Position numbers and translations under genes: made by a program. The notes under the pieces were generated by a model, which saw only the letters and a list, made by a program, of their open reading frames with translations, made no database searches and was not told where the DNA came from. This document shows positions 1 through 54,675 of a DNA stretch of 64,000 bases, piece by piece. Source of the DNA: a candidate division LCP-89 bacterium B3_LCP (GTDB taxonomy: Bacteria; Electryoneota; B3-LCP); assembly GCA_005223185.1 (NCBI GenBank), contig NJBN01000003.1, positions 62,001-126,000 on the forward strand, written 5' to 3'. Position 1 is the first letter of the stretch. The number at the start of each line of letters is the position of its first letter.

Positions 1-1076
1 TGAGTTTGGATTACTCACAGGCTGAAAGCCTGAAACAAACCATCGTACGGCATTCGAGAGCCGGGGATCTTTCGCTCTATTCAGAAGCACAGGAACGCGA
101 TCTGACGCTTTCGGAACTACTGGAAGAACTGGACCCGACGCCTCGAAGCGCCAACGGCAACCCGGCAGGGCAGTTTGACGCTTTCGAGCGCCAGATGCTG
201 GTTATGGGACTCAACGGAAGCGGGCGCAGATCCATCACTGTCGAGGACTTCTACTTGGGCGGCGGACTGATTCTCCTGCCGGAATATATCCAGCGTGAAA
301 TCCAGCGCGGTTATCGCCTGGTGCAGGATCCGCAGGAACTACTGGCTGCGTCAGTAGCAGTTAACGTACCGTCGGTCAAGCCTATCTACATCAAGATGGA
401 TGGCGCCAAGGAGAGCTTCGCCAAGCGTTCTGATGGAGCCGCCTACCCCACGGTTCAGCTTCTTTACAGAGAGAAGGAAGCCGATATCGTTGACAAGGGA
501 CGCAGCTTCGATTTCTCCTACAAGGTGATCAGAGGACAGAGGTTAGATGAATTCAAGGTATTCCTCTGGTGGATCGGAGCGCAATTGGCGTATGATGAAA
601 TCGATGACATCTACGACGTAATCATCAACGGTGATGGTACCAGTCCCGGCGCTGCTGACGTTTTCAACGGTGCTGGAGGAACCTGGGCTTATTCCGATAT
701 GGTACACCTGGCGATGTCCTTCGACGTACCATCGCAGATGACGCATGTCCTGGGCACCAGAGATGACATCGAGACCATCCTGAACCTGACTCAATACCAG
801 GATCCGGATACCTGGCATGCTGCGGAACTGTTCAGCAAGCAGGGACGCTATCAGGGTCTGCTGCCCATGAATGCCAAACTGGTAGTTGCACCCAACGCAA
901 CTGCAACCGAATTCGCAGCGTTGGACAGCCGCTTCGCCATCCGTGAATCGGTAGCGCAGCCACTGATGATCGAAGCGGAAAAAGTCATTTCACAGAAACT
1001 TGAAACTGCGGTGATTTCCAAAGAATCAGTTTACACCATCATGGTGGATGACGCCATGAAATCTTCGGATTACTAA
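1..1076 (+). CDS. Phage major capsid protein (HK97-fold type), 5' end at window edge
   Basis: The encoded protein of about 357 residues resembles tailed-phage major capsid proteins. It has a charged N-terminal helical segment (about residues 1-60), an Asp/Glu-rich E-loop-like stretch, a long spine-helix region around FLWWIGAQLAYDEIDDIYD, and a C-terminal part with VAPNATATEFAALD and the closing DDAMKSSDY. The first in-frame start inside the window is TTG at 6. Bases 1-5 read TGAGT, so an ATG whose A is the base just before the window would give MSLDYSQ; this is the likelier start, and an ATGA overlap with an upstream gene is possible. It is followed by two other head genes on the same strand. 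The capsid call is strong; the exact family is inferred. Confidence 0.85.
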   Translation, partial: SLDYSQAESLKQTIVRHSRAGDLSLYSEAQERDLTLSELLEELDPTPRSANGNPAGQFDAFERQMLVMGLNGSGRRSITVEDFYLGGGLILLPEYIQREIQRGYRLVQDPQELLAASVAVNVPSVKPIYIKMDGAKESFAKRSDGAAYPTVQLLYREKEADIVDKGRSFDFSYKVIRGQRLDEFKVFLWWIGAQLAYDEIDDIYDVIINGDGTSPGAADVFNGAGGTWAYSDMVHLAMSFDVPSQMTHVLGTRDDIETILNLTQYQDPDTWHAAELFSKQGRYQGLLPMNAKLVVAPNATATEFAALDSRFAIRESVAQPLMIEAEKVISQKLETAVISKESVYTIMVDDAMKSSDY

Positions 1077-1126
1077 TAGTGAATCATCACCACACCAAAG
1101 TATATCACATTGGAAAGAGGTAGCTT

Positions 1127-1498
1127 ATGCCTTTAAATCCAACAGAAAATTACCTGCGTGAAAGACGCAACTGCACACTGATGAATTTCGCTGAAGTCGT
1201 AACGACCAATAACCGTTATCTCAAAGGACCGGGCGGGTATTCCGGTGATGGTTACCCCATGCCTGCGCCCGGGAAGATACTCCGGCTGAAGGTTTATGAC
1301 GACACTTCTGTGCAAAGTTCATCCGCAGAATCCAGTTTTAATGCTGGAGACCGGATTTCAGTGATAGCGGAATATGACCAGCCCTGGTTCGACGTTACCG
1401 TTCAGATTAACGGCGTCAATTCCGCTACCTATTGTAACATGGTGCAGGTGAACTGCACCTTGCGGGCTTCAGTGTTGTTGCGGCTGGACGTTTATTAA
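1127..1498 (+). CDS. Small uncharacterised protein of the phage head cluster
   Basis: This 123-residue protein has no motif I recognise. It is rich in beta-prone residues, lacks a signal peptide or membrane segment, and contains three cysteines. The start is supported by a GAAAGAGGTAG ribosome binding site a few bases upstream of ATG 1127. It lies 50 bases after the capsid gene and about 100 bases before the decoration-like gene on the same strand, so a minor capsid or head-assembly role is plausible from position only. No function can be assigned from the sequence itself. Confidence 0.6.
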   Translation: MPLNPTENYLRERRNCTLMNFAEVVTTNNRYLKGPGGYSGDGYPMPAPGKILRLKVYDDTSVQSSSAESSFNAGDRISVIAEYDQPWFDVTVQINGVNSATYCNMVQVNCTLRASVLLRLDVY

Positions 1499-1605
1499 GC
1501 GTGCATTTGCAGTCAGGTAAACAACTAAACAAAAGTCAAATGGCAGCCTGTCCCAAAGGCACTTTGAACGGGCTGCCGCCCCTTGATACATAAAGGAGGA
1601 AAACA

Positions 1606-2046
1606 ATGTCAAGTCAATTCATAGTAGATAACCAGGGAGTGGGCATGCACCCCACCCTGACCATGAAGGTCGATACCAGCACCAACAAGGATTTCTCTCA
1701 AGTCGATATCGACAACAACCTCACCGCCTGCATCATATCAGATGACAACGAGGTAGGTATGGGCACCAACGGTAGTAAGCTTTTCGGTAAAGTCGTTGCC
1801 GTTTCTTCTGAGGTTGACGGCAATGGAATTCCGGCCACTTGTACTGTACAAGCCGGCGGCGTCGCTCGCTTCAAGTACAACACCGGTGCAGCTCCATCCG
1901 TGAACCAGATGGTGGAGGTTGACGGCGCTGGCAAAGTGCGCCAAGCTTCTGCTGCTGCCAGCATCCCCGCCGGTGGTCACGTCTGCCGTGGCCAGGTCAT
2001 CGCCAAAGACACGACCAATGAAACTGTGGATGTGTGGTTAGGGTAG
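1606..2046 (+). CDS. Capsid decoration (cement)-like protein
   Basis: The 146-residue product is small, Gly/Ala/Val-rich and beta-rich, with pieces such as TCTVQAGGVARFKYN and a C-terminal GQVIAKDTTNETVDVWLG. This resembles phage capsid decoration proteins (DUF2190-like or lambda gpD-like), which bind the outside of the mature shell and stabilise it after DNA packaging. It follows the capsid gene, the usual place for this protein. A strong AAAGGAGG ribosome binding site precedes ATG 1606. The family is judged by composition and order rather than an invariant motif, so a different minor head protein is possible. Confidence 0.6.
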   Translation: MSSQFIVDNQGVGMHPTLTMKVDTSTNKDFSQVDIDNNLTACIISDDNEVGMGTNGSKLFGKVVAVSSEVDGNGIPATCTVQAGGVARFKYNTGAAPSVNQMVEVDGAGKVRQASAAASIPAGGHVCRGQVIAKDTTNETVDVWLG

Positions 2047-2054
2047 GTTGAAAT

Positions 2055-2184
2055 GGGGCTGTCTTAAAAGAAGGATTGTCATTCTGAGCCCTAATTTATT
2101 GGGGTGAAGAATCTCTTGTTATTCTGTAACTTGCGGATTAAGGAGACTCTTCGCTTCGCTTAGAGTGACATTTGGGACAGCCCC
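2055..2184. mobile_element. Short inverted-repeat element (MITE-like), about 130 bp
   Basis: The ends are perfect inverted repeats, GGGGCTGTC at 2055-2063 and GACAGCCCC at 2176-2184. The interior carries the TGTCATTCTGAGCCC...GGTGAAGAATCTC type of intergenic repeat, related to the stretches near 6404-6440 and 23720-23763. It begins 9 bases after the decoration gene stop and has no coding capacity. A non-autonomous mobile element or a folded intergenic repeat are both possible. Confidence 0.55.
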
Positions 2185-2284
2185 TACTAAATACTTTATC
2201 CTTGTGAAAGATGCGTAAGCGCTAGACGGCTTTTTCTGGTGAAAATTCTTGTGTTATGCGATATAATTATATATAATAGTATTG

Positions 2285-2590
2285 ATGAACAAGAAAACTG
2301 TTAAAATACCTCAAAAGGTAATCGCTGAGTTCTGCAAGCGAAATCATATCAGAAAACTATCTCTTTTCGGTTCTGCATTGAGGGGTGATCTACGGCAGGA
2401 CAGCGACGTCGATTTCTTGGTAGAATTTGATCCTGATCATCTCCCCGGTTTAATCAGACTCGCTGGAATTGAATTAGAGCTGGCAGGACTGTTGGGACGC
2501 AAAGTCGATCTCAGAACGCCTCAAGATCTAAGTCGCTATTTCAGGCAGGAAGTGATTGATACAGCTAAGGTGCAGTATGCTAAAAGCTGA
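2285..2590 (+). CDS. MNT-type nucleotidyltransferase antitoxin
   Basis: The protein is a minimal nucleotidyltransferase of about 101 residues with the motif [20 protein letters not shown], the GS-x-RG-x-SD-x-D signature that binds metal and nucleotide. Family members partner HEPN toxins and neutralise them by adding AMP to the toxin. The next gene overlaps it by 14 bases and encodes such a HEPN protein. ATG 2285 is preferred to the TTG at 2282. The pair sits between two phage head genes on their strand. The AMP-transfer role is known for the MntA/HepT family and inferred here. Confidence 0.85.
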
Positions 2591-2912
2591 CCGGATTCGC
2601 CTTAACCACATGTTAGATGCTGCGCATGAAGCAGTCTCTTTTATTCAGGACAAAACTCTTAGGACTTTACATAGTGATCGTAAACTAACCCTCGCACTGA
2701 TCAAATCCATTGAAATTATCGGTGAAGCAGCATCAAAGGTCACCGAAGAAACCCGCAATGACCTACCTCATATCCCTTGGTCGAGCATTATCAACATGAG
2801 AAACCGCCTCATTCACGCCTACTTCGACATCAACTTAGACATCCTCTGGAAAACAGTAATCGAGGACCTTCCACCACTAATCCACGATCTTGAAGAGGTT
2901 GTTGGGGAATGA
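2577..2912 (+). CDS. HepT-like HEPN toxin (DUF86)
   Basis: This 111-residue helical protein carries RNRLIHAY near residues 85-92, matching the Rx4HxY motif of HepT RNase toxins, where Arg, His and Tyr form the active site and the target of antitoxin modification. ATG 2577 lies inside the end of the MNT gene with a 14-base overlap, indicating translational coupling; an earlier in-frame start at 2556 is less likely. HEPN toxins of this group cleave RNA and halt growth when not neutralised. The motif is intact, so the toxin is probably active. Confidence 0.85.
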
Positions 2913-2968
2913 GTTTAGGAATATATTTTCAGTGATGCATGGCGGCCTGGTTGCAAGTGTTATTAAGC

Positions 2969-3598
2969 TTAAAATGGGAATTCTAGTATAGTTATACAAT
3001 AGAAATCATTATTATCACTTTGTGTATCCTCCCAGGGTTTCAATCCAAGCACATGTTCTCCTGCCGAAATTCCGTTTAAAACCAATGGATTCATTACAAA
3101 TGATTTGTGACTTTGCCTCTCATTTGTGTAGGTCTTGCAAGTGCCAACAACTTTGCCATCCAGTTCTATATACATTCCTATTATACTGGATTCATGTGAG
3201 TAACCAGAACCGGAGGCAAAAATGATCATGGTGCCGCCATTTGATGTGAAGCTACCTCCCAACTTGTCCCAAGATCCATTTTCCAGGTCAAGTATTTGTG
3301 TAACATCCCAACTGCCAACATCTAAAAATGAATCAATTTCGCCAATCATCGATACAGCATTATCATGGAGATTCCTTATCTCATCCATTTTTTGCTTTGT
3401 AGTGTTCTCCAGTTCGGTTATTCCCTTTTCATCAAGCTTCATCTTAATTGCATCATTTACGTATTTATTCACCCCAAAAGCGGAGAGAATTGCAATTATT
3501 ACAGCTATAAAACCGAAAATCCCTATCGCTTGATTTCGAGCTTTATCTGCTTGCTCCTTAACATAGAGTTTTATTTGTGCTGGTATATCTTCAGACAT
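2969..3598 (-). CDS. Membrane-anchored protein with coiled-coil and C-terminal beta domain, function unknown
   Basis: The 209-residue product has an amphipathic N-terminus, one membrane segment (about residues 25-44, IGIFGFIAVIIAILSAFGV), a helical stretch that could be coiled coil (45-90), and a Gly/Ser/Thr-rich region ending in DFYCITILEFPF that looks beta-rich. I do not recognise the family. It has its own consensus promoter at 3682-3710. It runs opposite to the flanking phage and toxin-antitoxin genes and is separated from HepT by only 56 bases. Confidence 0.6.
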   Translation of the reverse strand: MSEDIPAQIKLYVKEQADKARNQAIGIFGFIAVIIAILSAFGVNKYVNDAIKMKLDEKGITELENTTKQKMDEIRNLHDNAVSMIGEIDSFLDVGSWDVTQILDLENGSWDKLGGSFTSNGGTMIIFASGSGYSHESSIIGMYIELDGKVVGTCKTYTNERQSHKSFVMNPLVLNGISAGEHVLGLKPWEDTQSDNNDFYCITILEFPF

Positions 3599-3676
3599 AA
3601 TTCAGTCCGTCTCTATAGTCATAATTACTGTTCTCTGCATAGGTTCTCTTTACTCATTTGCCTTGTCCACCTACCT

Positions 3677-3745
3677 CCCCCAATATACCCACCCCCACTC
3701 CAAATGTCAAGTTAAATAACTGGTACATCTTTTCATTACACAGTT
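3677..3745. repeat. Promoter/leader block L1, direct repeat of 4515-4583
   Basis: These 69 bases match 4515-4583 closely, including CCCCCAATATACCC and the exact ATCTTTTCATTACACAGTT at the end. The block carries a minus-strand promoter and, on the plus strand, the leader that in the second copy precedes the connector gene. Here the plus-strand leader leads nowhere, so this copy looks like a duplication remnant. Confidence 0.75.
3682..3710 (-). promoter_or_regulatory. Promoter for the membrane-anchored protein gene
   Basis: Read on the minus strand it is TTGACA (3705-3710), a 17-base spacer, and TATATT (3682-3687). It lies 84 bases upstream of ATG 3598. Confidence 0.75.
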
Positions 3746-3786
3746 TAGGTTCGCTGTTAGGGGAGATCTGATTGTAGAGGTTTTAA

Positions 3787-3945
3787 TCCCCCCTTACTCC
3801 CCCCTTGAAAAAGAAGGGGGGCTCTTGTGGTGTCCCATCATTCAGAGGGCTCGCGTACTATCCCCCCTTGTCAAGGGGGGAGGCCCGGCTTGCCGGGGCG
3901 GGGGGGATCAGGTGGATATACCGCCGGGACGGGGGGATCCGCAAA
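3787..3945. repeat. GC-rich palindromic repeat, left flank of DUF559 gene (R1)
   Basis: The stretch has CCCCCCTTACTCCCCCC, TTGAAAAAGAA, GGGGGGCTC, then CATCATTCAGAGGGCTCGCG and CCCCCCTTGTCAAGGGGGG. It is repeated almost exactly at 4350-4512, and shorter relatives occur at 33119-33211, 35751-35844 and 41452-41520. The copy encodes the last few residues of the DUF559 protein. Confidence 0.8.
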
Positions 3946-4327
3946 TTCTATGAATTTCAGAACACACCCCGGCTAAGTTTTCCATAACATCCGTATTCAA
4001 AAACCTGATTATCTTCAATCCATATCCTTCAAGTATAGATGTGCGTTCTGCATCGTAGCCTTTCCCATCCTCAGTGAAATGTGATTCACCGTCAATCTCA
4101 ATCACTAATTTCAATTCAGGGCTGTAAAAATCTACAATAAAATGGTCTATAGGTCGCTGTCGTAGAAATTTATATTTTGAATGTCGAAGGCAATCAAGCC
4201 ATAGTTTCTTCTCTGGTTTAGTCATATTCTTGCGGAGTAACTTTGCACGCTCAACCAGAGCTGGATTATAGGGTAAATGAAAATTACCGGTTATTAGGCC
4301 TCGTTTCTTTAAATCTTCACGATCCAT
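3908..4327 (-). CDS. DUF559 (Vsr-like) endonuclease-domain protein
   Basis: The 139-residue product matches the DUF559 family related to very-short-patch-repair and restriction nucleases. It has ARLLRKNMTKPEKKLWLDCLR-type helices, then FIVDFYSPELKLVIEIDGESHF, which holds the family's Asp/Glu catalytic core, then GLKIIRFLNTDVMEN. ATG 4327 is chosen because it opens the conserved region; a longer frame to 4438 only translates the flanking repeat. The C-terminal SPRPGGIST is encoded by repeat R1, so the gene has been trimmed or extended by the repeat. It is bracketed by near-identical repeats R1 and R2, like a small mobile cassette. Promoter 4520-4548 can drive it. Confidence 0.8.
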   Translation of the reverse strand: MDREDLKKRGLITGNFHLPYNPALVERAKLLRKNMTKPEKKLWLDCLRHSKYKFLRQRPIDHFIVDFYSPELKLVIEIDGESHFTEDGKGYDAERTSILEGYGLKIIRFLNTDVMENLAGVCSEIHRICGSPRPGGIST

Positions 4328-4349
4328 ATTCAGTTGTTTGCACTTAAAA

Positions 4350-4512
4350 GATCCCCCCTTACTCCCCCCTTGAAAAAAAGGGGGGCTCACATGTTTCCCA
4401 CTCTTGAAAGAAGGGGGGCTCTTGTGGTGTCCCATCATTCAGAGGGCTCGCGTACTATCCCCCCTTGTCAAGGGGGGTGGCCCGGCTTGCCGGGACGGGG
4501 GGATTGGAAGAT
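4350..4512. repeat. GC-rich palindromic repeat, right flank of DUF559 gene (R2)
   Basis: This is the second copy of R1 in direct orientation, with the same TTTTCAAGGGGGGAG-type palindromes and the shared CTCTTGTGGTGTCCCATCAT segment. It lies between the DUF559 start codon and leader block L2. Confidence 0.8.
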
Positions 4513-4514
4513 TT

Positions 4515-4583
4515 CCCCCAATATACCCTCCCCCACCCCAATTGTCAAGCCAAACATCTAACACATCTTTTCATTACACAGTT
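4515..4583. repeat. Promoter/leader block L2, direct repeat of 3677-3745
   Basis: This copy joins a minus-strand promoter for the DUF559 gene to the plus-strand leader of the connector gene at 4625, so it is probably the original arrangement. Confidence 0.75.
4520..4548 (-). promoter_or_regulatory. Promoter reading toward the DUF559 gene
   Basis: On the minus strand: TTGACA (4543-4548), 17 bases, TATATT (4520-4525). It lies about 190 bases upstream of ATG 4327, with repeat R2 forming a structured leader. Confidence 0.65.
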
Positions 4584-4624
4584 CGCAATTTCCAATCTAA
4601 AATCTGAAATCCAAAGGAGGAATC

Positions 4625-5479
4625 ATGTCCTGGACAGACTTAAGCACAGTGCGCAAGCACCTGCAGGAGACCACCACTGCATCTACGACAATCGAAGATG
4701 AGGAGCACATTCTATCGGGCACGGACATAGTGCAGCTTGAACGCAAATCGATCACTCAGCATTCTGAAGAGGTCAAGACTATTGATCTGGGCAGCCCTTT
4801 CGAGGCTGGCTTAAAGACTTTAACCGGCACCAACTGGATGAATTTAGTTCATGACGACCTGGTGCCTGACACGATCGTGATCACTGCCGATCAAGCTCTC
4901 GATACCGTTTACATCGAAGGCACGGATTACATTACCGATTACGAAGTTGGCAGGATCAAGCGAGCGGCTGGATCGGCTATTCCCAGCGGCGGGCAGGTGT
5001 ACGTCTGGTATTTCTACTTTACGGTGCACACCAGGGATACCGACTACGAAATTGATTATGATTCAGGTGAGTTGAACCGGATCGATATTGGCAGTATCGC
5101 CAACGGATCGACGGTGTATGTGGATTATTCAGTATCGGCAGGGACCGTCGCCGACGAACTTATCGAGCAGGCGATTGACGAAGCTGAAGATAAGATTCTG
5201 GCGCGGCTGAAAGATGAGTATTCCCCCTCATCAACCGATCAGGGATTGAAAACCGGCGCTACCGAATTGACTTTAGCAGTAGTCTGCAACGCCAAAGCCA
5301 TGGACGTTATGCTGAAATCGCCTTCGGATGAAGCTGACGGCGCCTCGGGACAGTGGCGCATGATGTCCCAAAGATATGAAAACCAGGCGTGGGAAACGCT
5401 GGACCGCTTCGTAAATACCCGCACTCGGCGCAGACCGGTAGCAAAGAATAACAAAAGCTGGGATTTGTGGGCGGATTAG
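4625..5479 (+). CDS. Phage head-tail connector/adaptor protein
   Basis: The 284-residue protein resembles head-tail adaptor proteins that form the ring below the portal. It has an N-terminal helical start (MSWTDLSTVRKHLQ), two beta-rich repeats with the pattern DYEIDYDSGELNRI near residue 140, and a helical C-terminus (DELIEQAIDEAEDKILARLK, then ENQAWETLDRFVN) typical of gp6/gp15-like connectors. AAAGGAGG precedes ATG 4625. It is on the same strand as the capsid genes but separated from them by 2.6 kb of inserted genes. The next expected genes (head closure, tail terminator, tail tube) are absent downstream. Confidence 0.7.
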   Translation: MSWTDLSTVRKHLQETTTASTTIEDEEHILSGTDIVQLERKSITQHSEEVKTIDLGSPFEAGLKTLTGTNWMNLVHDDLVPDTIVITADQALDTVYIEGTDYITDYEVGRIKRAAGSAIPSGGQVYVWYFYFTVHTRDTDYEIDYDSGELNRIDIGSIANGSTVYVDYSVSAGTVADELIEQAIDEAEDKILARLKDEYSPSSTDQGLKTGATELTLAVVCNAKAMDVMLKSPSDEADGASGQWRMMSQRYENQAWETLDRFVNTRTRRRPVAKNNKSWDLWAD

Positions 5480-5495
5480 GTTCACATTATGGGCG

Positions 5496-5533: not shown

Positions 5534-5536
5534 TCT

Positions 5537-8697: not shown

Positions 8698-9135
8698 ATG
8701 CCTGATACTTTCTACGACCGTTTAGACTTCTACCGCATGCTCAATGCCGGTATGAACAACTTTGCTAAAATAGCCGTAGCTCTTAGAGTCTCCGTTCGCA
8801 CACTGGAGCGCTGGAAGAGGAGCTATGATCCTGAAAAAGGTCCCTACGGCTCCTTAGGCGACATATCTGTCGATCAGATGCTGGAATCCAAGCTTGAGTT
8901 GCTGGACGGAATTGACGGACAGGGTTTTGTGGCGGACAATTCTGAGCCCGAGCTAAAGAAAGGTCCCCGCGCCGAGATCCTCTACGCCCTCCGCCAGGCA
9001 GCCCTTGAAGGCAACGTCCCCGCCGCCAAGCTACTGCTATCCGAGTACAGCAATCTACCCCCGGAGGACGGGGAAGTGCTGACCGTGGAAAACGCCATCG
9101 AACTGATTAAAAGCTGGGCGGAAGAATCTAAATGA
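8698..9135 (+). CDS. Phage terminase small subunit
   Basis: The 145-residue protein has an N-terminal helix-turn-helix (about residues 15-42, FAKIAVALRVSVRTLERWKR) like the DNA-recognition domain of small terminases, then a helical oligomerisation region ending in AALEGNVPAAKLLLSEY, common in phage small terminase subunits. Its stop overlaps the start of the large terminase by four bases (ATGA), the usual coupling. An in-frame stop lies 12 bases upstream of ATG 8698, so the start is fixed. It should select phage DNA for packaging. Confidence 0.8.
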   Translation: MPDTFYDRLDFYRMLNAGMNNFAKIAVALRVSVRTLERWKRSYDPEKGPYGSLGDISVDQMLESKLELLDGIDGQGFVADNSEPELKKGPRAEILYALRQAALEGNVPAAKLLLSEYSNLPPEDGEVLTVENAIELIKSWAEESK

Positions 9136-10484
9136 ACTCCAGAGAATTTCACCAGCTCTACAAAGCATTTCATGACCCTTTTGCTTTCCTGACCAAACAT
9201 GTGCATACGCTGGATCCGGTCATGGGCATAACCCCCTATCCGGACTGGCAGCACCTGCGCAGGCTCAGTGGAGCCCTCTTATCTTCACAACGCATCTTAG
9301 TCGTCAAGTCTCGCCAGATGATGGCCACCTGGACGTCACTGGGATTGCTGCTGCACCAGGCAATTTTCGGCAGTCAGGGAATATATCTGTTGCTATCGCG
9401 CAACGAACGATCAGCGAAGGAATTGCTGGACAGGTTGAGGTTCATAATAGCTGGTCTGCCAAAACATTTCCGACCGGGGATCGGCACTAATAATTCGGAG
9501 GAGTTGGAATTTTCAGGCATAGGCGTGCGCATCCTGTCGCTGCCCGCTACACCTGACGCTCCGCGTATGCATTCACCGGCGGGGGTTATCTGGGATGAGA
9601 TGGCTTTCACGCCCCATTCAGAGGATATCTGGACGGCGTTAAAGCCAGCATTGGATTCGGGAGGATTTTTCTGGGGGATATCCAGTTCGGGAGGACCGGG
9701 AAATGTCTTCGCTCGTCTGGCAGCAAATCCATCCGAATATGGTCTGAAATCAATGTGGCTGCACTATTCTGAACATCCTCATCGTGGTGAAGATTGGGTG
9801 AATGAGGCACGAAAAGGGCTTTCCCGGGAGCGCTGGGCGAGGGAATATGAGATCAGCTTTGAATTTGCCGAAGACCGCGTATATTCGGATTTTGAGCGCA
9901 GAACTCACATCCTGGTGGAGCCGTATCGTGTGCGCACGGATCTGCCGATCTACCGTTCTGTGGATTTCGGGTACTACCACCCGGTGGTGTTATACATACA
10001 GAAAACGACTGACGACCGGATCATCATCATTGATGAATGGATCGGTGAGCGTGCCACCATTCAGGATTTGCACGATGCTATATGCCACATGGATGCCACA
10101 TACGGCATTTCCGAGAAGGATGTGGCATGGACGTCCTGCGATCCTGCGGGTCACAGTCCAGGCGATTCAGGAGTTTCCCCTATCGAGAGGCTGAAGCGGG
10201 CGGGGATCAAAATCAGAGCGAAGGCATCGCGCATAGAAGAAGGACTGGACTTAGTGCGCGAGATGCTGCGAGAACGTGAAGGCGTGCCGGGTCTGATGGT
10301 ATCACCGAAGGCTGCTAAAACGGTAGAAGACTTTGGCGGTTACCGCATGCGGGAAGACGGCTTAGCACCGGAGAAGGACAATATCCACGATCACACCATG
10401 GATGCGCTGCGCTATTTTGTGGTGAATTTGATGGGGGTGAAGGGGAATAAAATGAAGGTGGGTGCGAGGGTAAGGGGACTATAG
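9132..10484 (+). CDS. Phage terminase large subunit
   Basis: The 450-residue motor protein carries an ATPase domain with a variant Walker A (VVKSRQMMATWTSLG, about 58-72) and Walker B VIWDEMAF (about 152-159), followed by an RNase H-like nuclease domain with Asp residues in SVDFGYYHP, TSCDPAG and the late HDHTMDALRY. All expected catalytic positions are present, so the packaging ATPase and headful nuclease look intact. The start overlaps the small subunit. The stop overlaps that of the convergent GNAT-ASCH gene by six bases. The next phage gene on this strand, the portal, is 37.7 kb away. Confidence 0.93.
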   Translation: MNSREFHQLYKAFHDPFAFLTKHVHTLDPVMGITPYPDWQHLRRLSGALLSSQRILVVKSRQMMATWTSLGLLLHQAIFGSQGIYLLLSRNERSAKELLDRLRFIIAGLPKHFRPGIGTNNSEELEFSGIGVRILSLPATPDAPRMHSPAGVIWDEMAFTPHSEDIWTALKPALDSGGFFWGISSSGGPGNVFARLAANPSEYGLKSMWLHYSEHPHRGEDWVNEARKGLSRERWAREYEISFEFAEDRVYSDFERRTHILVEPYRVRTDLPIYRSVDFGYYHPVVLYIQKTTDDRIIIIDEWIGERATIQDLHDAICHMDATYGISEKDVAWTSCDPAGHSPGDSGVSPIERLKRAGIKIRAKASRIEEGLDLVREMLREREGVPGLMVSPKAAKTVEDFGGYRMREDGLAPEKDNIHDHTMDALRYFVVNLMGVKGNKMKVGARVRGL

Positions 10485-15488: not shown

Positions 15489-16706
15489 TTACTCCTCCGG
15501 TGGAAGGGGAATCTCACCCGGCAGAACGGCTGTAATGCCCCTCTTATTGCGCAAATCTTCGATTTTGCGTAATGGCACTTCAAGCTTGTTGCGGCGCGTG
15601 GTTACCAATTTATCATATTCATTCTTCGCATCTTCTAAACGCTTGCCCATCATTTCCATGCGTGCTACGTATTCGTTCCATTGCTTATTGAAGGAACCCA
15701 GCAGAGATAAAATCTCATGTGAAGTCTGTTCTAAGTTGAAATTATCCACTGCCTGACGAATGACGGCTAAAACTGCAAATAGGGTAACTGGCGAGCAGAA
15801 CACTACATGCTGTTTTAATCCTTCATCCAAAATATTACGATCCTGTTCATGGATAAAAGCGTAAACCTGTTCGTTGGGGATGAAAAGCAGGACATAATCC
15901 ACCGTATTTTCGGCGGGATTGATATATTCCCTGCCAGCAACTTCCTTTATTCTGTTTTTCACGTCACGCAGGAATTGTTTTCTAAATTCCTCTGCGTTGT
16001 GAGAATCACCGCTTGATTCAGCTTCGAGAAATTTCAAATAATTATCCAAGGGAAATTTCACATCCATATTGATGATCTGATTTTGAGGCAGGAAGAAGGT
16101 GAAATCCGGACGTTTTCCGGTGGATTCCATAGTCATCTGCTTGCGGTAGTTGACGTTTTCAATGAAACCCGCCACGCGCAGAACGTCTTCAGCCATGCGT
16201 TCGCCCCACTGACCGCGCACTTTACTGCTTGCCAAAGCTTCCTTCAACTGACCCGTAGTATCCATCAGTCTGGCTGTCTGTTCACTGGCGACGCGCAACT
16301 GCCTGTCAAGCTGCCCAAACTTTTCCACCCGGTCATTTTCCAAATCCTTCATCAAGCGGCCGACTTTATCCAGTTCCCCGGTCATGCTCTTCAACTGCTG
16401 ATCGATCAGGGATTTCTTGGATTCCAGTTCTTTCGATCCGGCTTGGGTTTGGATTTCCAGGGTTCCTTTGGCTAATTTGAGGAACTCTTCGGTTGACTTT
16501 GACAGCGCTTCTAAAGAGAGGCTGCCGAAACTCGATTTAACGGATTCGATCACCTGTTCAACTTGTTGTTGACGCTGGGAATCGGTTTCACGGTACATCT
16601 CAGCGGCTAATTCTCTGGCGTTCTTGGAATGGATGATTTTCAGCAGAAATGCAGCGCTGATGCCTAAGATGAAGCCGACGACCAAGGTTATGATGGCTAA
16701 GGTCAT
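15489..16706 (-). CDS. rmuC: DNA recombination protein RmuC
   Basis: The 405-residue protein has an N-terminal membrane segment (about residues 3-24), a long coiled coil (about 30-160, ending near LKEALASSKVRGQWGE) and the RmuC nuclease-like domain with FTFFLPQNQIINMDVKFPLDNY, YINPAENTVDYVLLFIPNEQVYAFIHE and VVFCSPVTLFAVL. RmuC-family proteins limit inversions at short inverted repeats, which fits a genome full of palindromes. It lies upstream of the nucleosidase gene on the same strand. Confidence 0.93.
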   Translation of the reverse strand: MTLAIITLVVGFILGISAAFLLKIIHSKNARELAAEMYRETDSQRQQQVEQVIESVKSSFGSLSLEALSKSTEEFLKLAKGTLEIQTQAGSKELESKKSLIDQQLKSMTGELDKVGRLMKDLENDRVEKFGQLDRQLRVASEQTARLMDTTGQLKEALASSKVRGQWGERMAEDVLRVAGFIENVNYRKQMTMESTGKRPDFTFFLPQNQIINMDVKFPLDNYLKFLEAESSGDSHNAEEFRKQFLRDVKNRIKEVAGREYINPAENTVDYVLLFIPNEQVYAFIHEQDRNILDEGLKQHVVFCSPVTLFAVLAVIRQAVDNFNLEQTSHEILSLLGSFNKQWNEYVARMEMMGKRLEDAKNEYDKLVTTRRNKLEVPLRKIEDLRNKRGITAVLPGEIPLPPEE

Positions 16707-48234: not shown

Positions 48235-49509
48235 ATGTTCTGGAAATCCAAAAGAGAAGAGAAAGATCACCATCCCCGCCCGCTGATAACACCCGTTCCA
48301 GCGGCGCGAGCCAGAGGCGCTAAGCATCGTTTAGGGACTACCAGCCTGTCTTCATGGCCGGTAGCAAGGGGCGTTACGGCTGCAAGAACCTGGGGTCTGT
48401 ACAATTACGTTCCCAGCGGCAGAGCATCGCTCTACTGTTATCTGCGGGATACCATTCCCATAGTATCAGCAGCAGTCTGGGCATGGGTGAGGTTGTGTTC
48501 CACACCTCAATCTGTGGAGATTACCGGCTCCGAACCTGAAATCAGCCGAGCACAAGGCATCCTGGATGATCTGGACAGCCGCATCTTAGAAAACCCTTAC
48601 CAGCGAGCTAAAGGGGTTAACCGGCTCACCGAAGCCATGTTCCTGGATCTATTCACTTTAGGACGTTTCTGTGGAGAATTGGTGCTGCAGCCGGATGGAT
48701 CGGGGATCGATTACTTCCAGACGCTGGATCCTTTCAAGGTGCAGTGGGAGAGATCGGGTAAATGGAGAGCGACCTACGAAGAGGAAGATGGTTCGGTCCG
48801 AAAATTGAATCCTGAACGCACCTTCTACACCACTTTAGGAATGGATTCAACTAATCCGGCTGGCATCGAACCTTTAGCCACTGTTCCTTTCATTCTGGAA
48901 ATTGAACAGAAGCTGTTGGAAGACATGGCGAGATCAAGTCATAACGCCGGTACGCCTCGCCTGCAGGTGAAGATCACTCCGCCACAAGCATTTGAAAACG
49001 AGAACGAAGAGGAATACCTGTCTCGCATTAACGGCTACTTCGATCAGACCGTTGACCAGTTTCAATCACTTGAAGCTGACCAGAACCTGTTCACCTGGTC
49101 GGATGTGGAAGTAACTGTTGTTGGCGGCGAAAAAGGCCGCAGTTTCACCTGGAAGGTCAACAGGGAACAGATTCTGGAAGACGTCATCACTGCTCTCAAA
49201 CTGTTCCCCTGGGTGCTGGGACGTTCGCACGGCACCACACAGAACTGGGTGAGCGCTCAATATAATTTGCTGATGCAGGAAGTTGATTCTATCCAGGCTT
49301 CGGCTACTTCCTTAGCAGACTGGCTGCGTAGTACTGAACTGAAATTGCGCGGCTGCAAAGCGAAAGCAAAACATGTCTTCGCTCCCAATCAGGATCCGTT
49401 CCAGTTGGAGCGTGCTCAAGCGGATGAAACCCGCTTCGGCACGATTGACGGAATGGTGGAGAAAGGGTATATTACCAAGGATGAGGGTAAGAGAAGGTTG
49501 GGAGTGTGA
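48235..49509 (+). CDS. Phage portal protein
   Basis: The 424-residue protein resembles tailed-phage portal proteins, which form the dodecameric DNA channel at one capsid vertex. Visible elements are a basic N-terminus, the wing-type stretch RASLYCYLRDTIPIVSAAVWAWVRL (about 62-86), TEAMFLDLFTLGRFCGELV, a stem-like helix FILEIEQKLLEDMARSS (about 222-238) and the C-terminal YITKDEGKRRLGV typical of portals. ATCGGAGG lies eight bases before ATG 48235. It is intact and on the same strand as the terminase 37.7 kb upstream and the protease 4.4 kb downstream. Everything around it is on the minus strand. Confidence 0.85.
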   Translation: MFWKSKREEKDHHPRPLITPVPAARARGAKHRLGTTSLSSWPVARGVTAARTWGLYNYVPSGRASLYCYLRDTIPIVSAAVWAWVRLCSTPQSVEITGSEPEISRAQGILDDLDSRILENPYQRAKGVNRLTEAMFLDLFTLGRFCGELVLQPDGSGIDYFQTLDPFKVQWERSGKWRATYEEEDGSVRKLNPERTFYTTLGMDSTNPAGIEPLATVPFILEIEQKLLEDMARSSHNAGTPRLQVKITPPQAFENENEEEYLSRINGYFDQTVDQFQSLEADQNLFTWSDVEVTVVGGEKGRSFTWKVNREQILEDVITALKLFPWVLGRSHGTTQNWVSAQYNLLMQEVDSIQASATSLADWLRSTELKLRGCKAKAKHVFAPNQDPFQLERAQADETRFGTIDGMVEKGYITKDEGKRRLGV

Positions 49510-49598
49510 AGAATTGAGAATGTAGAATGTAGAATTGGGAATTGAGAATTATAGGGGCGAGATTACCTCGCCCCTATAGACTATTTCTACTATCTGTT

Positions 49599-49640
49599 GC
49601 GTCAGGTCTTGTCAGTCAACCGACTGATGTGACCTGACGC
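49599..49640. repeat. GCGTCAGGTC palindromic repeat, second copy
   Basis: Arms GCGTCAGGTC and GACCTGACGC enclose an inner CAGTC/GACTG stem. It lies between the portal stop and the holin-like gene, near another hairpin GGGGCGAG/CTCGCCCC at 49555-49575. Confidence 0.65.
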
Positions 49641-49661
49641 CCAATCTAAAAACTTGCGACT

Positions 49662-49922
49662 TTACGCCGCACTTGCCTTAGGCAACAAGGCATTATAAAG
49701 CCACGCAAAGATAGCTCCGCAGATCAACCCATCTACGAAGCCCCAGACCAGGCCGATAATACTGCCCAGCGGTGTAATAGTGTAACCTAAGTAAACCCGG
49801 TTGAAAATTGTTGTAGTTGCTCCGGACCCTTCCAGGATGATCAGCCACCACGTCGCAAGAAACAGTCCCACACCCACGAGAATGGCGCTCGTCAGAGCTA
49901 AAGCTTTGACATTTAAACGCAT
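49662..49922 (-). CDS. Small two-helix membrane protein ('bacteriophage holin'-labelled family)
   Basis: The 86-residue protein has two membrane helices (about 10-31 and 54-79) and opens MRLNVKALALTSAILVGVGLF. This start is shared by a bacterial family that is often automatically labelled bacteriophage holin. It is on the minus strand next to other cellular genes, so it is unlikely to be the lysis protein of the phage module. Function unknown. Confidence 0.6.
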   Translation of the reverse strand: MRLNVKALALTSAILVGVGLFLATWWLIILEGSGATTTIFNRVYLGYTITPLGSIIGLVWGFVDGLICGAIFAWLYNALLPKASAA

Positions 49923-49980
49923 GATGAGTTCCTTTCGGTTAAGATGAACCAGTTAAACGGGTAGTGGTAAGATTCTCTTT

Positions 49981-50355
49981 CTATTTTAGATCTTGGGATT
50001 GCTTCCTGTTTATTAACTGAGTGAAAGGTGCGACAATTAAGAACCCCAGAAGCATCAATCGAGTGATTTTCAGTTTGTGTCCATATTCAGTTAGCTTTTC
50101 GATGATAGAAGTAGCATAGGCGAGCATATCGGGGGTCATCATGCTTTCTCCACTCTGCATGTGAGTGGAAGTTGAAAGTGAAGCTAAAAGACCTACTTGC
50201 TGTTCAATCAGGCTGGAGAACATACCATACAACAGCAAGAGGACAACTGAGGTCAAGGCGATGATAACCGCTTTCAGCAGCTTCGATTTGATAAAAACCA
50301 ATGCGACTAGTGAAAACAGTGCTATTATGACGATGGCAATTTCATAGGATAACAT
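49981..50355 (-). CDS. Small membrane protein of unknown function
   Basis: The 124-residue protein has three membrane segments (about 3-21, 29-49 and 95-112) separated by a polar loop with QVGLLASLSTSTHMQSGES. I do not recognise the family. It has an ideal promoter at 50392-50420 and may be co-transcribed with the holin-like gene 58 bases downstream. Confidence 0.6.
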   Translation of the reverse strand: MLSYEIAIVIIALFSLVALVFIKSKLLKAVIIALTSVVLLLLYGMFSSLIEQQVGLLASLSTSTHMQSGESMMTPDMLAYATSIIEKLTEYGHKLKITRLMLLGFLIVAPFTQLINRKQSQDLK

Positions 50356-50391
50356 GTTCCAGCACCATCTATTATCTTCCGCATTTTATCA

Positions 50392-50420
50392 AATATAACA
50401 ACTATTTCCCTAATTGTCAA
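50392..50420 (-). promoter_or_regulatory. Promoter of the small membrane protein gene
   Basis: On the minus strand TTGACA (50415-50420), 17 bases, TATATT (50392-50397). Confidence 0.8.
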
Positions 50421-50481
50421 TACCTAAATCAGAAATATGAAATTTTATCTTTACATTGCTTTTCTGCAAATTTGAAAACCC

Positions 50482-51855
50482 CTATTCCTCCGCTTCCGGC
50501 ACGCCTTTCAGCAGCCATTTTCTGGCAAGGAGTAGCGTAACCGGGCTGATGCAGGCTATACATGCGTAGACCATCCACATGGTACCGCTATTATGTGGAC
50601 CGCTTTCGGGAACAAAATGCGCTAACATCGAACCGGAATACAATCCGGTGGTGAACTTCGCCATGAACCAGGGGATGCCCGCCAAACCCATGTAAGCTCC
50701 CACTCTGCCCGCCGGCGCCAATCGTGCCACGTATTCCAGAAAACGCGATGACCAGACTGCTTCGCCAAGTGAATAGATGGTAACATAAGTCAGCAGAGTC
50801 CATAAATGCGGACCCGGCACCAGGATAAAGGGAATAATTGCGGTGATCAAAGTGCCGATAATCATCATATTTACGATCTTGGCTTTTCTGGTGAAGGCGG
50901 CTATAGTCGGCACGAAGATGACTATTATCAGTGGATTCATACCGTGAATCCATTCGTACTTCGCCGACACAGTTTCGGGGAAACAGCGAAAGACGTAATC
51001 GGGCACGGTCAGGAAATCGTGTGCGAAGATGGTGCGCACCGGCAGCAGGATGAATATGAAGAACATGAAGCGGGGATCGGCGAAGGGCAGCTCTTTTAAC
51101 TTCTCGATCCAGGTTTTATCGCCGTCGTCATCTTTCTCCTCTTCGACAACCGTCCTGTCCGTTTCTTCCACCTTACGTGTAAAGAAGGTTATATGGATCA
51201 GGAGCATCAATCCGGTGACGGCAATAGCCATCCAATAGACACCATTTATCCCCCAGCCAAGACCTACTATTTCCATAAATCCTAAGTTTAAGAAAGTAGC
51301 ATCTGAACGAAGGAAAGGTGATATGAAGCTTTCCGCCACTATGCCTAAGTTCATAATCGAATAGAGCAGTCCGAAAGCAATGGTTGCGGTGCGCGGATCG
51401 GTATACTCCTTAATTCCAGCGTAAAGAGCAGGCTGCATGACGCCTGTACCCAGAGCCATCAACATCAGACCAGTCCAGGCGGATACCTGGCTCATTCCCT
51501 CGAACGCGGGTGCAATAGTCAATAATACCCGCCCCGCTCCGATGACGATCAATGACCAGGTTAAGGCTCTGCGCACACCCAATTTATCCGAAACGAATCC
51601 ACCACCGAACATGAAGAGAGTAACCAAACCGGTGTATAACGACACACTGAAGCCGGTTACTTTATCAGTCATACCTAGACCGGACGGACCCAGGTAGCGG
51701 GTCAACAGCATGAGGATGCCGAAGTAGGCGATGCCGTCGAAGAAGTTGATCTGGTTAACCAGCCAGAAACCTTTGGAGGCTCTCAGCAATAAACGGAAAT
51801 TTTCGCGAAGGGTTAAGTCTTTTTCTTCTTCAGTGGATTCGGTCGGGTCGGTCAT
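50482..51855 (-). CDS. MFS transporter, POT-like
   Basis: The 457-residue protein has about 12 membrane helices with FWLVNQINFFDGIAYFGILMLLTRYL near the start and GGGFVSDKLGVRRALTWSLIV in the loop between helices 2 and 3, the MFS signature. FGLLYSIMNLGIVAE and a C-terminal AVWSSRFLEYVARLAP resemble the POT transporter at 20066, but the first signature lacks the ERM residues. Substrate is probably a peptide or other small solute, not certain. It is a stand-alone gene on the minus strand. Confidence 0.75.
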   Translation of the reverse strand: MTDPTESTEEEKDLTLRENFRLLLRASKGFWLVNQINFFDGIAYFGILMLLTRYLGPSGLGMTDKVTGFSVSLYTGLVTLFMFGGGFVSDKLGVRRALTWSLIVIGAGRVLLTIAPAFEGMSQVSAWTGLMLMALGTGVMQPALYAGIKEYTDPRTATIAFGLLYSIMNLGIVAESFISPFLRSDATFLNLGFMEIVGLGWGINGVYWMAIAVTGLMLLIHITFFTRKVEETDRTVVEEEKDDDGDKTWIEKLKELPFADPRFMFFIFILLPVRTIFAHDFLTVPDYVFRCFPETVSAKYEWIHGMNPLIIVIFVPTIAAFTRKAKIVNMMIIGTLITAIIPFILVPGPHLWTLLTYVTIYSLGEAVWSSRFLEYVARLAPAGRVGAYMGLAGIPWFMAKFTTGLYSGSMLAHFVPESGPHNSGTMWMVYACIACISPVTLLLARKWLLKGVPEAEE

Positions 51856-52039
51856 GGGAAGTTCCGTAGATTATATGGTGATATGAAGCTATAATTTACG
51901 AAGGAGGGAAACTAATTGCAAGGGGGAAAGTGGTGATTCAGGATTCGGAATTTGGGAGTCGTTGAGCAGTCGGACGCCCTCGTCCGACTCTTCAAAACTG
52001 GCAGACGAGGGCGTACGCTTGCTGGAGGAAAGTATTAGA

Positions 52040-52840
52040 CTACGGATTATAATACTGCAATGCTTCAGGCATCTGTTCTTTCAGTTTCTCCACCCTCGTT
52101 TCCGGAGCCGGGTGGGTGGAGATAAATTCGGGGGGACGCACGCCGCCTTCTAAATTCATTCGTTCCCAGAAGGGGACAGCTTCACGGGGATCGTATCCAG
52201 CTTTTGCCATGAGGATCAGACCTATATGATCAGCTTCCGATTCATGCAGACGGCTGTAGGGTAATAGAACGCCAACCTGAGCACCCACGCAGAAAGCGGT
52301 TAAGGCAATCATGCGTGTCTCTTCTGATTTCTCCTTCAGCGCCAGATCGAGAGCCACGCCACCTAATTGAGTGATCAATCCCTGGCTCATCCTCTCCCCG
52401 CCGTGATTGGCTAAGGCGTGAGCAACTTCGTGTCCCATAACTACAGCTACGCCGGTGCTGTTCTGGCAGACCGGCAGAATCCCACTGTAAAAAGCGACCT
52501 TACCGCCGGGCATACACCAGGCGTTCACCAAAGTGTCGTTGTCGATCAGATTAAATTCCCACTGGTAATTCCGGATCTTGCTGGACAATCCATTCTCACG
52601 CAGAAAGTCTTCGGCTGCCTGGGCTATGCCGCGTCCTACCTGACGGATCATCCGCACGTCTTCCCTATCCTGCGATAGGTTCGATTCAGCCATCACCTGC
52701 TGATAACTATCCAAACTCAAAGCTAACAGTTCATATTGAGGGATGATGGTTAACTGCTGCCTGCCTGTAAGAGGCACAGTTGCACAGCCGATCAGGAAGG
52801 TAATTATCAGTAGAAAGGGTATTATTCTCACTGTTTTCAT
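52040..52840 (-). CDS. M48 family metallopeptidase lipoprotein
   Basis: The 266-residue protein has a lipoprotein signal (MKTVRIIPFLLIITFLIGCA), then the M48 catalytic site VVMGHEVAHALANHGGERMS (HExxH near residue 140) and a third ligand region SRLHESEADHIGLILMAKAGYD. The layout is that of periplasmic LoiP/YcaL-type zinc proteases, which degrade misfolded envelope proteins. It is fully intact and follows a signal-type arrangement for an outer-membrane or periplasmic anchor. Confidence 0.9.
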   Translation of the reverse strand: MKTVRIIPFLLIITFLIGCATVPLTGRQQLTIIPQYELLALSLDSYQQVMAESNLSQDREDVRMIRQVGRGIAQAAEDFLRENGLSSKIRNYQWEFNLIDNDTLVNAWCMPGGKVAFYSGILPVCQNSTGVAVVMGHEVAHALANHGGERMSQGLITQLGGVALDLALKEKSEETRMIALTAFCVGAQVGVLLPYSRLHESEADHIGLILMAKAGYDPREAVPFWERMNLEGGVRPPEFISTHPAPETRVEKLKEQMPEALQYYNP

Positions 52841-52969
52841 TATGGATCTCTATATTTATCGTGGATATTCCATAATCATAGTTCAGTGTAAAACTAGTTT
52901 GACCTGCCAAAAAATAATTCACAGCCGTCTTATAGTCAAGGGTTGTTATCGCGAATGTTGTAAATAAAA

Positions 52970-52998
52970 TAAGAAAAGGCGGGGGAAGCACCCCCGCC
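52970..52998 (-). terminator. Rho-independent terminator downstream of the orphan sorting domain
   Basis: On the minus strand GGCGGGGG pairs with CCCCCGCC, followed by TTTTCTTATTTTAT. Confidence 0.8.
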
Positions 52999-53044
52999 CT
53001 ACGGCTTATTCTGTTCTCTGTTTTCTGTTCTCTGTTTTCTGTAT

Positions 53045-53266
53045 CTACTTCATCAACACTAACTTCTGTGTCTGCGTAAAATCGCCAGCTTCCAAGCGTA
53101 CAAAGTAGATTCCCGATTCTAGACCGGTTCCATCGAAGAGTATGTTGTGCGTGCCGAGGGGATAATAACCCTGTAGGTCGGATTCCCCGAATCCGACCAC
53201 CCGCCCGTTTATATCAGAAAATCTCCCATTTCTTTCTTGTGAGAGCAGGATCGGTACTCTTAACAT
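53045..53266 (-). pseudogene. Orphan T9SS sorting-domain fragment
   Basis: The frame encodes FSDINGRVVGFGESDLQGYYPLGTHNI (in parts), then SGIYFVRLEAGDFTQTQKLVLMK in parts, the second half of a sorting domain, but no NPFNP strand or gene body. It overlaps the 3' end of the zinc-ribbon/SH3 gene in a different frame. The palindrome 53176-53198 lies in it. It looks like debris from recombination with a T9SS gene. Confidence 0.7.
53176..53198. repeat. GGTCGGATTC palindrome in the orphan sorting domain
   Basis: GGTCGGATTC and GAATCCGACC around CCC. The same repeat family occurs inside the phage protease gene at 54534-54554. Confidence 0.75.
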
Positions 53267-53834
53267 AAAAATCCTGCATTATAAAAACATTTCTGTTCCA
53301 ACACTCCAAATCGTCTACTGTTTTGATATATAAGAGTCGCGCTCTACCGCCTAGAACCTCACCATAGTATTTCTTACTGAAACCATTATCTTTATACAGT
53401 TTCACCCCTGACCACAAGCGACCACTTGCAGGCAACCAAAGTTCTTCATTCTTCAGTAAATATGCTGCTGAATATCCAATTGGAATTCCACTTTTGTATA
53501 TGAGATACCACCCATCTATCAAACTGTCTACTAAGACTTCTTCACCAAGCTTTATCTTATCTATTACGGGAAAATCAGTTGACCGACCGGATCTGATATT
53601 AATAGTCGTGTGCGCATATTTGTGCTGTAGATCTTTTGATCGTTCTGCTTTATCCCCATCCCTGTTATTAGATACTATTACTATCGCAAGGATTAAGAAT
53701 ATGAAGATAAGAAAAAGAGCAAATCCCGCAAATGAATCATCATTCATACCGGGATTCTTAACGCCACATTCTGGGCATAACTTAGCTGATTTCGTTACTT
53801 CATGACCACATTCTCTACAATTAACCAGAGCCAT
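53214..53834 (-). CDS. Zinc-ribbon, membrane-anchored SH3-domain protein
   Basis: The 206-residue protein has an N-terminal zinc ribbon (CRECGHEVTKSAKLCPECG, residues 6-24), one membrane helix (about 35-55), and an SH3b-like domain (about 70-125, INIRSGRSTDFPVIDKIKLGEEVLV then GWYLIYKSGIPIGYSAAYL). The last 20 residues may be altered by the neighbouring sorting-domain debris. It probably binds cell-wall or protein partners on the outside, with the ribbon inside. It has a consensus promoter at 53864-53892 back to back with the phage protease gene. Confidence 0.75.
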   Translation of the reverse strand: MALVNCRECGHEVTKSAKLCPECGVKNPGMNDDSFAGFALFLIFIFLILAIVIVSNNRDGDKAERSKDLQHKYAHTTINIRSGRSTDFPVIDKIKLGEEVLVDSLIDGWYLIYKSGIPIGYSAAYLLKNEELWLPASGRLWSGVKLYKDNGFSKKYYGEVLGGRARLLYIKTVDDLECWNRNVFIMQDFYVKSTDPALTRKKWEIF

Positions 53835-53863
53835 TTTTATTATCCTTTATAGAGTAGCAATCC

Positions 53864-53892
53864 AATATACAAAACAATTCCACAAAAGTCAA
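53864..53892 (-). promoter_or_regulatory. Promoter of the zinc-ribbon/SH3 gene
   Basis: On the minus strand TTGACT (53887-53892), 17 bases, TATATT (53864-53869). Confidence 0.8.
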
Positions 53893-53951
53893 TACCCCAA
53901 AACAAATTTCTAAAAATTAAGGAGAACCACCATGATTCACCAAACACTATC
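53880..53951 (+). repeat. Leader and first codons of the phage protease gene (intact copy)
   Basis: The 72 bases match 41328-41400 with only a few differences, and are identical from AGGAGAACCACCATG onward. Confidence 0.85.
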
Positions 53952-54675
53952 AGGTCCGCTGGTAAGAGATGCGGACATACCAACGAACGAGGACGTTCGT
54001 ATTATCAATTCGCTGAAGAATCCGCCGCCTGTACCGGTATCTGAGAAGGATATCTTCATGCGCCACTGCCGTTTAGCAGGAGACTCCATTGACGGCTATT
54101 TCGGTTGCTTCCGGACTGAAGATTTGCCCAAGCTGTTGTCCATGGTGCAGGGCGCGCCTCTGCTCATAGGACACAATAAGAGATCGCTGGGTGTGGCTCG
54201 TTTTTTCGGCGGAACCATCGAAGAACATGACGGCAGTAAGTACATCGTCCCCAGCTTCTATTGGCTGCGCGGACATTCATCCGCCGATGACCTGCGCGTC
54301 GCCATCGACGGCGGCTTGTACAGTGAAGCATCCATCTCCTTCGCCTATGAAAAACCCACCTGCTCAGTCTGCGGAGAGGACATACGTACCTGCGAACATC
54401 TGCCCGGTTCAGCGCATGGAGATGACGGTAACCCTGTTTTCTACTATTACGACAACGTGGTTGCTGTACTGGAGGGGTCACTGGTCTATCGTGGCGCTCA
54501 GCCGGGAACGGGGTTCAGTTTGTCATCGATGTTGTCGGATTCGGAGAATCCGACCTACGGTACTCCCATCCTGCGCATCAAACGACACGGTAAGTGGTAT
54601 CGAGCACCATTGATCGAGGAGAATCCAGATTCAGAACCACCAGTCACGCAACCCTCGCAACCTGCGAGTGTATGA
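53932..54675 (+). CDS. Phage capsid-maturation protease-like protein
   Basis: The 247-residue protein resembles HK97-type prohead proteases. LLIGHNKRSLGVARFFGG (about 77-94) offers the catalytic His, and LYSEASISFAYEKP (about 128-141) the catalytic Ser context. A short zinc-type motif CSVCGEDIRTCEHLPG (about 143-158) follows, as in some environmental phage proteases. The C-terminal tail is Pro/Gln-rich. AGGAG precedes ATG 53932. Its palindrome 54534-54554 belongs to a host repeat family. The order portal then protease is normal, though 4.4 kb of cellular genes separates them. Confidence 0.72.
   Translation: MIHQTLSGPLVRDADIPTNEDVRIINSLKNPPPVPVSEKDIFMRHCRLAGDSIDGYFGCFRTEDLPKLLSMVQGAPLLIGHNKRSLGVARFFGGTIEEHDGSKYIVPSFYWLRGHSSADDLRVAIDGGLYSEASISFAYEKPTCSVCGEDIRTCEHLPGSAHGDDGNPVFYYYDNVVAVLEGSLVYRGAQPGTGFSLSSMLSDSENPTYGTPILRIKRHGKWYRAPLIEENPDSEPPVTQPSQPASV
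54534..54554. repeat. GTCGGATTC palindrome inside the phage protease gene
   Basis: GTCGGATTC and GAATCCGAC around GGA, extended by GTAGGT on one side on the minus strand, just as at 53176. It encodes part of LSDSENPTYG. Confidence 0.7.

Follow-up and report, generated by a model that had tools for sequence, protein, structure and literature searches.

A phage-derived head and DNA-packaging module, probably domesticated and dispersed in B3_LCP, of Electryoneota and two further phyla

We analyze a 64,000-nucleotide stretch of the genome of candidate division LCP-89 bacterium B3_LCP (phylum Electryoneota), hereafter "the window" (contig C16:62001-126000; genome G000, 3.79 Mb in 18 contigs). Eight phage head and packaging genes, all intact and all on the plus strand, are spread across 54.7 kb of the window among cellular genes. 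We read them, with a probability of about 0.72, as a domesticated and vertically inherited DNA-packaging head module that derives from a tailed phage, is tail-less or very short-tailed, and resembles a gene transfer agent (GTA). The initial annotation of this DNA had proposed a domesticated particle or GTA with separated genes, and that proposal survived all the tests we ran. The case is strong as evolution; particle assembly, packaging of host DNA, control by a switch and the movement of DNA between cells are what we infer from it.

Results

Head and packaging genes

The genes form five islands (MCP-orf2-decoration, connector, TerS-TerL, portal and protease), and coordinates, profile matches and invariant residues bear out the initial description of eight intact plus-strand genes. 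The major capsid protein (MCP; 1..1076, contig C16:62000-63076, 358 aa) starts at an ATG at contig position 62000, one base 5' of the window. It matches phrog_3922 (E 1e-46) and PF25209 (above its cut-off), and its orthologues in the host phylum are 52-84% identical. The portal protein (48235..49509) matches phrog_3753 (E 2e-30) and aligns, with an hhalign probability of 100%, with the portal of a second phylum, that of genome G046. A PDB sequence search with the MCP and portal profiles gave no match.

The large terminase (TerL; 9132..10484) matches phrog_2 (E 4e-29), PF03237 just above its cut-off and, among PDB profiles, two large terminases of solved structure, one of them T4 gp17 (1e-20). 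Its Walker A residues K59/R61, Walker B residues D155/E156 and nuclease residue D278 are invariant in 30 sequences, while 29 of the 30 have D337 and D424, the remaining one showing a gap there; by these residues, both the ATPase and the nuclease active site are intact. The only profile match of the protease (53932..54675) is to phrog_16951, annotated "unknown" (E 1e-15). All 30 of the 30 homologues compared retain His81 and Ser134, the active-site residues that identify it as a predicted S78-type prohead protease, and they likewise share an invariant C-x2-C...C-x-H cluster.

The putative small terminase (TerS; 8698..9135) overlaps TerL by 4 nt, and its assignment draws on position, a weak helix-turn-helix (HTH) signal and a conserved slot; a profile built from the proteins that other families have in this slot matches it at 95.5% (hhalign). 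The decoration-like virion protein (1606..2046; phrog_4588, E 4e-6; 99.9% by hhalign to its second-phylum homologue) lies just upstream of MCP in most relatives and downstream of orf2 in the window's family. The connector-like gene (4625..5479) recurs in 26 loci and aligns across phyla with 100% probability (hhalign). Its AlphaFold2 (AF2) model has tandem beta domains and C-terminal helices (predicted local distance difference test, pLDDT, 86), for which a fold search returned weak matches with low TM-scores to baseplate or tail-protein beta domains and to neck proteins; position and the helical C-terminus suggest an adaptor. Between MCP and connector, orf2 (1127..1498, 123 aa) is conserved in 25 loci of the phylum and is confidently modelled as a beta sandwich (AF2 pLDDT 86). 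A fold search with it found no significant match, only weak galectin-like beta sandwiches, and the protein may be a head decoration or fibre. In the second phylum, a protein of about 310-480 aa and of no known family lies between MCP and connector (L218:10573-11985 and homologues, 13 loci) and is a candidate head fibre.

Strong Shine-Dalgarno sequences precede most islands, as the initial annotation had stated, with the exception of TerS.

Distribution across genomes

Of the 39 host-phylum genomes, 34 carry MCP (23 of the 27 good ones), at least 32 TerL, 33 the portal and 35 the protease, and 37 have at least one of the four. The module is single copy; where a genome gives extra matches, these resemble pieces of split genes. 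A homologous module occurs in 112 of 133 genomes of the second phylum and in 4 of 6 genomes of a third (that of G092), so the module is older than its host phylum, which NCBI places in the Fibrobacterota-Chlorobiota-Bacteroidota (FCB) group. A further scan of 386 genomes yielded only a handful of additional, weaker cases; the module is therefore clade-bound and not a ubiquitous mobile family.

The closest relatives in phage records share less than 30% identity, and IMG/VR holds one close contig. A TerL scan returned only six short contigs at 43% or more, the rest reaching at most 30% over most of the length. On these searches we rejected a circulating phage as the source.

Selection and inheritance

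MCP distances follow RpoB distances closely (rho 0.911 for 39 genomes of three phyla; 0.830 for 30 genomes within the phylum). The correlation is 0.844/0.699 for the portal, 0.733 for the protease and 0.540 for TerL, and in a permutation test (Mantel) 0 of 2000 permutations reached the observed value for any of these genes. Within the phylum, the mean MCP/RpoB distance ratio is 0.96, and TerL, portal and protease evolve at about 2.5 times the RpoB rate. The module is thus vertically inherited and has co-diversified with its hosts, as expected of a GTA.

Ratios of nonsynonymous to synonymous substitution (dN/dS), taken from pairs with unsaturated dS and leaving out several saturated pairs, are 0.05-0.11 for MCP and 0.08-0.22 for TerL, portal and protease. 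These values, far below 1, agree with the earlier argument that intact frames after dispersal imply selection, and the homologues that we compared, which might have been found disrupted, are intact with the exception of one metagenome-assembled genome (MAG). The module is intact, under selection, ancient and phylum-wide.

Gene order and dispersal

Most families of the phylum carry a compact cluster in the order (small ORF)-decoration-MCP-orf2-connector-TerS-TerL-portal-protease. In 16 genomes, a single contig holds both MCP and protease; 12 of these have a module of 6.3-9.7 kb, and the other four (G008, G013, G020 and the window's genome) one of 22-55 kb. The window's sequence of MCP-connector-TerS-TerL-portal-protease is, as first noted, the order usual in phages, circularly permuted. 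Genome G121, from the phylum of G092, has the same order as the host phylum, and the second phylum has portal-TerL-protease-decoration-MCP-connector; the host-phylum and second-phylum orders are circular permutations of each other. The permuted order is ancestral to the phylum, older than the dispersal and not caused by it. Between these two phyla, MCP, decoration-like protein, connector, portal and protease align with hhalign probabilities of 99.9-100%. For the small upstream genes of different families (up24, up25, up50), hhalign could not demonstrate homology. In several families of the second phylum, the cluster occupies one fixed chromosomal site, flanked by genes for a TPR protein, a PD-(D/E)XK nuclease, an HD-GYP-type regulator and an M50 peptidase.

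The initial annotation had advised a search of related genomes for the same islands; other genera of the family have them, along with several identical junctions. G001 has the portal, an MFS gene (89% identical) and the protease in the window's order; G001, G004 and G005 share the order ImmA-like gene, repressor, up25, minus-strand gene, MCP; and G001, G002 and G005 share MCP-orf2-decoration-connector. Since these junctions are common to separate assemblies of different genera, they are not chimeric, and the dispersal is real and stable in the window's family. G001 has none of the window's gap genes in the 8 kb 3' of TerL, and its TerL and portal lie on different contigs; this difference in the TerL-portal gap indicates that the islands are still drifting away from one another, with the genes themselves undamaged.

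Putative switch, lysis and tail genes

On the minus strand, 4 kb upstream of MCP (C16:56898-57948), lie overlapping genes for an ImmA/IrrE-type peptidase (PF06114) and an HTH_3 CI-like repressor. The pair is kept in the family loci that extend that far, and the repressor, with a common C-terminal domain, is also found in other families of the phylum. The repressor region contains divergent sigma-70-like promoters, one leftward and one rightward, and a comparison of four family genomes shows the same 16 bases, TGTTGTATATTATATA, at the rightward promoter in each. The layout is that of a temperate-phage switch, which may control the scattered islands. The promoter-like 16-mer TATATAATATACAACA occurs at C16 positions 493, 58070, 195008 and 309467, and one of these copies is the rightward promoter just described. 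We do not claim it as an operator; the three other copies on the contig have no obvious common type of downstream gene. The rightward promoter is followed by an apparent small Cys-rich plus-strand open reading frame and then by a family-conserved gene for a 145-aa coiled-coil-like protein (58638-59075).

No integrase, replication, tail or lysis module contiguous with the head genes was found in the window by Pfam/PHROGs annotation, in line with the initial description. Compact clusters of the host and second phyla likewise have no tail tube, tape measure or baseplate genes (Pfam, PHROGs), and the sole tail-named match is that of the connector's beta domain, weakly, to an Ig-like major tail protein family. 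A lookout for tail genes elsewhere in the genome had been advised. Tape-measure families are present in 2 and sheath families in 3 of 15 whole genomes, neither co-occurring with the module, and the window's genome has no tape measure. It does have a phage-sheath-like gene (G000:C13:43334-43882; PF04984, 668-aa frame), possibly part of a contractile injection system. As for lysis, an Amidase_2 gene follows the protease or adjoins the cluster in 7 loci, and a weak holin match lies at the end of the second-phylum cluster.

Discussion

Kogay et al. 2022 set out six features of GTAs (PMC9662315). Three are found here: particle proteins derived from Caudoviricetes (MCP, TerL, portal and decoration-like protein by PHROGs, Pfam and PDB profiles, protease by active site); endogenised genes, often at multiple loci (islands over 54.7 kb, near-universal in the phylum); and vertical inheritance. 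The other three (a gene set too large for one particle, encapsidation of mostly random host DNA, and delivery of that DNA to other cells) are experimental, and we therefore write "GTA-like" and not "GTA". The gene span of 54.7 kb would itself exceed a small head. The contiguous integrase, replication, tail and lysis modules of a temperate prophage were not found in the window, and cellular genes separate the islands. A tailocin keeps the tail and loses the head, the opposite of this gene content.

In the mechanism we propose, an ImmR/ImmA-like switch (CI-type repressor and ImmA/IrrE-type protease) would keep the module off until some signal (DNA damage, perhaps, or stationary phase) activated the rightward promoters in some cells. 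MCP, decoration protein and orf2 would assemble on the portal into an HK97-type shell, which the protease would mature, and TerS/TerL, with no phage genome of their own to package, would load the heads with host DNA. Particles might leave by lysis, an amidase gene adjoining the cluster in several families, and deliver DNA without a long tail, through a short connector-based tail or by another route.

Unlikely, though it deserves the most attention among the alternatives, is a conserved particle with another job, in which DNA-filled or empty capsids would be used for killing or defence, as storage shells or as decoys. It would fit the failure to find an injection tail, and PBSX-type particles are filled with host DNA that they do not deliver (PMC12946183). 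However, in killing particles it is usually the head that has been lost and the tail that remains, and TerL, TerS, portal and protease are all conserved with intact active sites; DNA packaging itself is therefore under selection. Another alternative is that an active temperate phage family with a preference for these hosts has infected them time and again, and that some of its copies are now decaying and scattered; in its favour are the phage origin of the genes and a repressor/ImmA pair typical of temperate elements. We think it very improbable, given single copies with the same chromosomal neighbours, host-congruent distances, an MCP as slow as RpoB, the lack of integrase, replication and tail genes, and near-absence from phage and IMG/VR records. 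Equally improbable is a non-functional prophage remnant dispersed by insertions: the islands of the window's family do lie far apart and one relative has an in-frame stop in MCP, but the dN/dS range of 0.05-0.22 contradicts decay, active sites are invariant phylum-wide and several genera keep the dispersed order. An assembly chimera of phage and chromosomal DNA, raised in the initial annotation and conceivable for a draft of 18 contigs, we reject as scarcely credible, because relatives with independent assemblies show the same junctions (repressor-ImmA-up25-MCP, MCP-orf2-decoration-connector and portal-MFS-protease) and the window has no composition break.

Several observations weigh against a domesticated GTA-like module. 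The particle, its packaged DNA and its transfer are predictions for a system known here from its genes. The G001 MCP is split by an in-frame TGA (L182:8099-9157), either a sequencing error or a broken copy. G017 and G036, and only these two, lack all four searched genes, which makes the module dispensable. The second-phylum TerL is not recognisably orthologous (hhalign 20%) and may therefore have been replaced. In the window's family, we saw no lysis gene next to the module. The absence of a tail refers to the annotation of clusters and to two gene families sought across 15 whole genomes, and tail genes too divergent for Pfam or PHROGs would be missed. Finally, the genomes sampled appear to be mostly or all MAGs.

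The nearest working analogue of the GTA-like module is FpGTA I of Faecalibacterium prausnitzii, whose particles are about 40 nm across, have no visible tail and carry about 9 kb of host DNA (PMC12946183, 2026). Both have a small host-fixed head cluster (TerS, TerL, portal, capsid) and gene sets split between loci. FpGTA belongs to another phylum, carries tail-fibre, baseplate, holin and endolysin genes at a second locus, and has a scaffolding gene where the window's module has the protease.

RcGTA (Rhodogtaviriformidae) has genes for a complete tail and keeps those for the head in one cluster. In the window, by contrast, the head cluster itself is scattered, no tail was found, and the host range is deeper, extending over three phyla. 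The two are alike in their domesticated tailed-phage head and packaging genes, several loci, vertical inheritance and slow evolution (PMC9662315). BaGTA (Bartonella) and BhGTA/VSH-1 (Brachyspira) likewise arose by separate domestications, and their gene sets are dispersed or in part unknown (PMC9662315), but they are limited to narrow host groups and differ in gene content. Encapsulins, HK97-fold nanocompartments, are also capsid-derived and vertically kept; they pair a capsid with a cargo enzyme and have no packaging genes, whereas TerL, portal and protease are all present and co-conserved here.

Two human-faecal "Bacteriophage sp." contigs, MT835508.1 and MT835952.1, contain only the homologous genes TerL-portal-protease-(decoration)-MCP, flanked by opposite-strand bacterial genes (SecY, RnfC, GerA), and 51 IMG/VR contigs resemble these clusters. 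They differ from the window's module in an MCP only 26-28% identical, in canonical order and in Clostridia-like hosts. Our guess is that they may be packaged host (Clostridia) chromosome recovered from such particles.

Recognised GTAs are few and mostly limited to single orders or genera, and our searches of open-licence literature found no report of GTAs in Zixibacteria, Calditrichota or Electryoneota. A head module that is near-universal in one phylum and frequent in another, that also occurs in a third, and whose capsid evolves as slowly as RNA polymerase would, if the reading is right, show that DNA packaging of viral origin can turn into a core cellular trait. We tentatively suggest, at somewhat less than even odds, that a tail-less particle was domesticated before at least three FCB-region phyla diverged and has been part of the core genome since, as the oldest and most widely fixed GTA-like system, with a non-tail route of DNA release or uptake. 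Such a system would make testable both gene transfer without a normal tail and the question of why selection retains GTAs. A GTA-like head cluster can spread over tens of kilobases yet persist, and prophage finders that need clustered genes therefore miss such elements.

Neighbouring genes

Rfam gave no match in the window. The genes that separate the islands are mostly on the minus strand, as the initial annotation had it, and encode a DUF559 protein, PSCyt1, cupin, HNH, DCD, PEPCK, RmuC, MFS and M48 peptidase proteins. The MNT/HEPN (HepT) toxin-antitoxin pair (2282..2912; PF01909/PF01934), which had been listed among them, is on the plus strand. Other genomes of the family have no conserved counterpart between the decoration-like and connector genes, and the pair is an insertion between islands, outside the module. 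RmuC (15489..16706, minus strand; PF02646, 1e-70) is cellular, as described, and its site is the TerL-portal gap; the portal-protease gap holds the MFS transporter (50482..51855, minus strand), whose counterpart in G001 was given above. The TerL-portal gap is also filled, at window positions 25427-48108, by several large secreted proteins sorted by the type IX secretion system, with LVIVD repeats in 4 of 5 tested. In G008, G020 and G131, the module is likewise split by large secreted-type genes.

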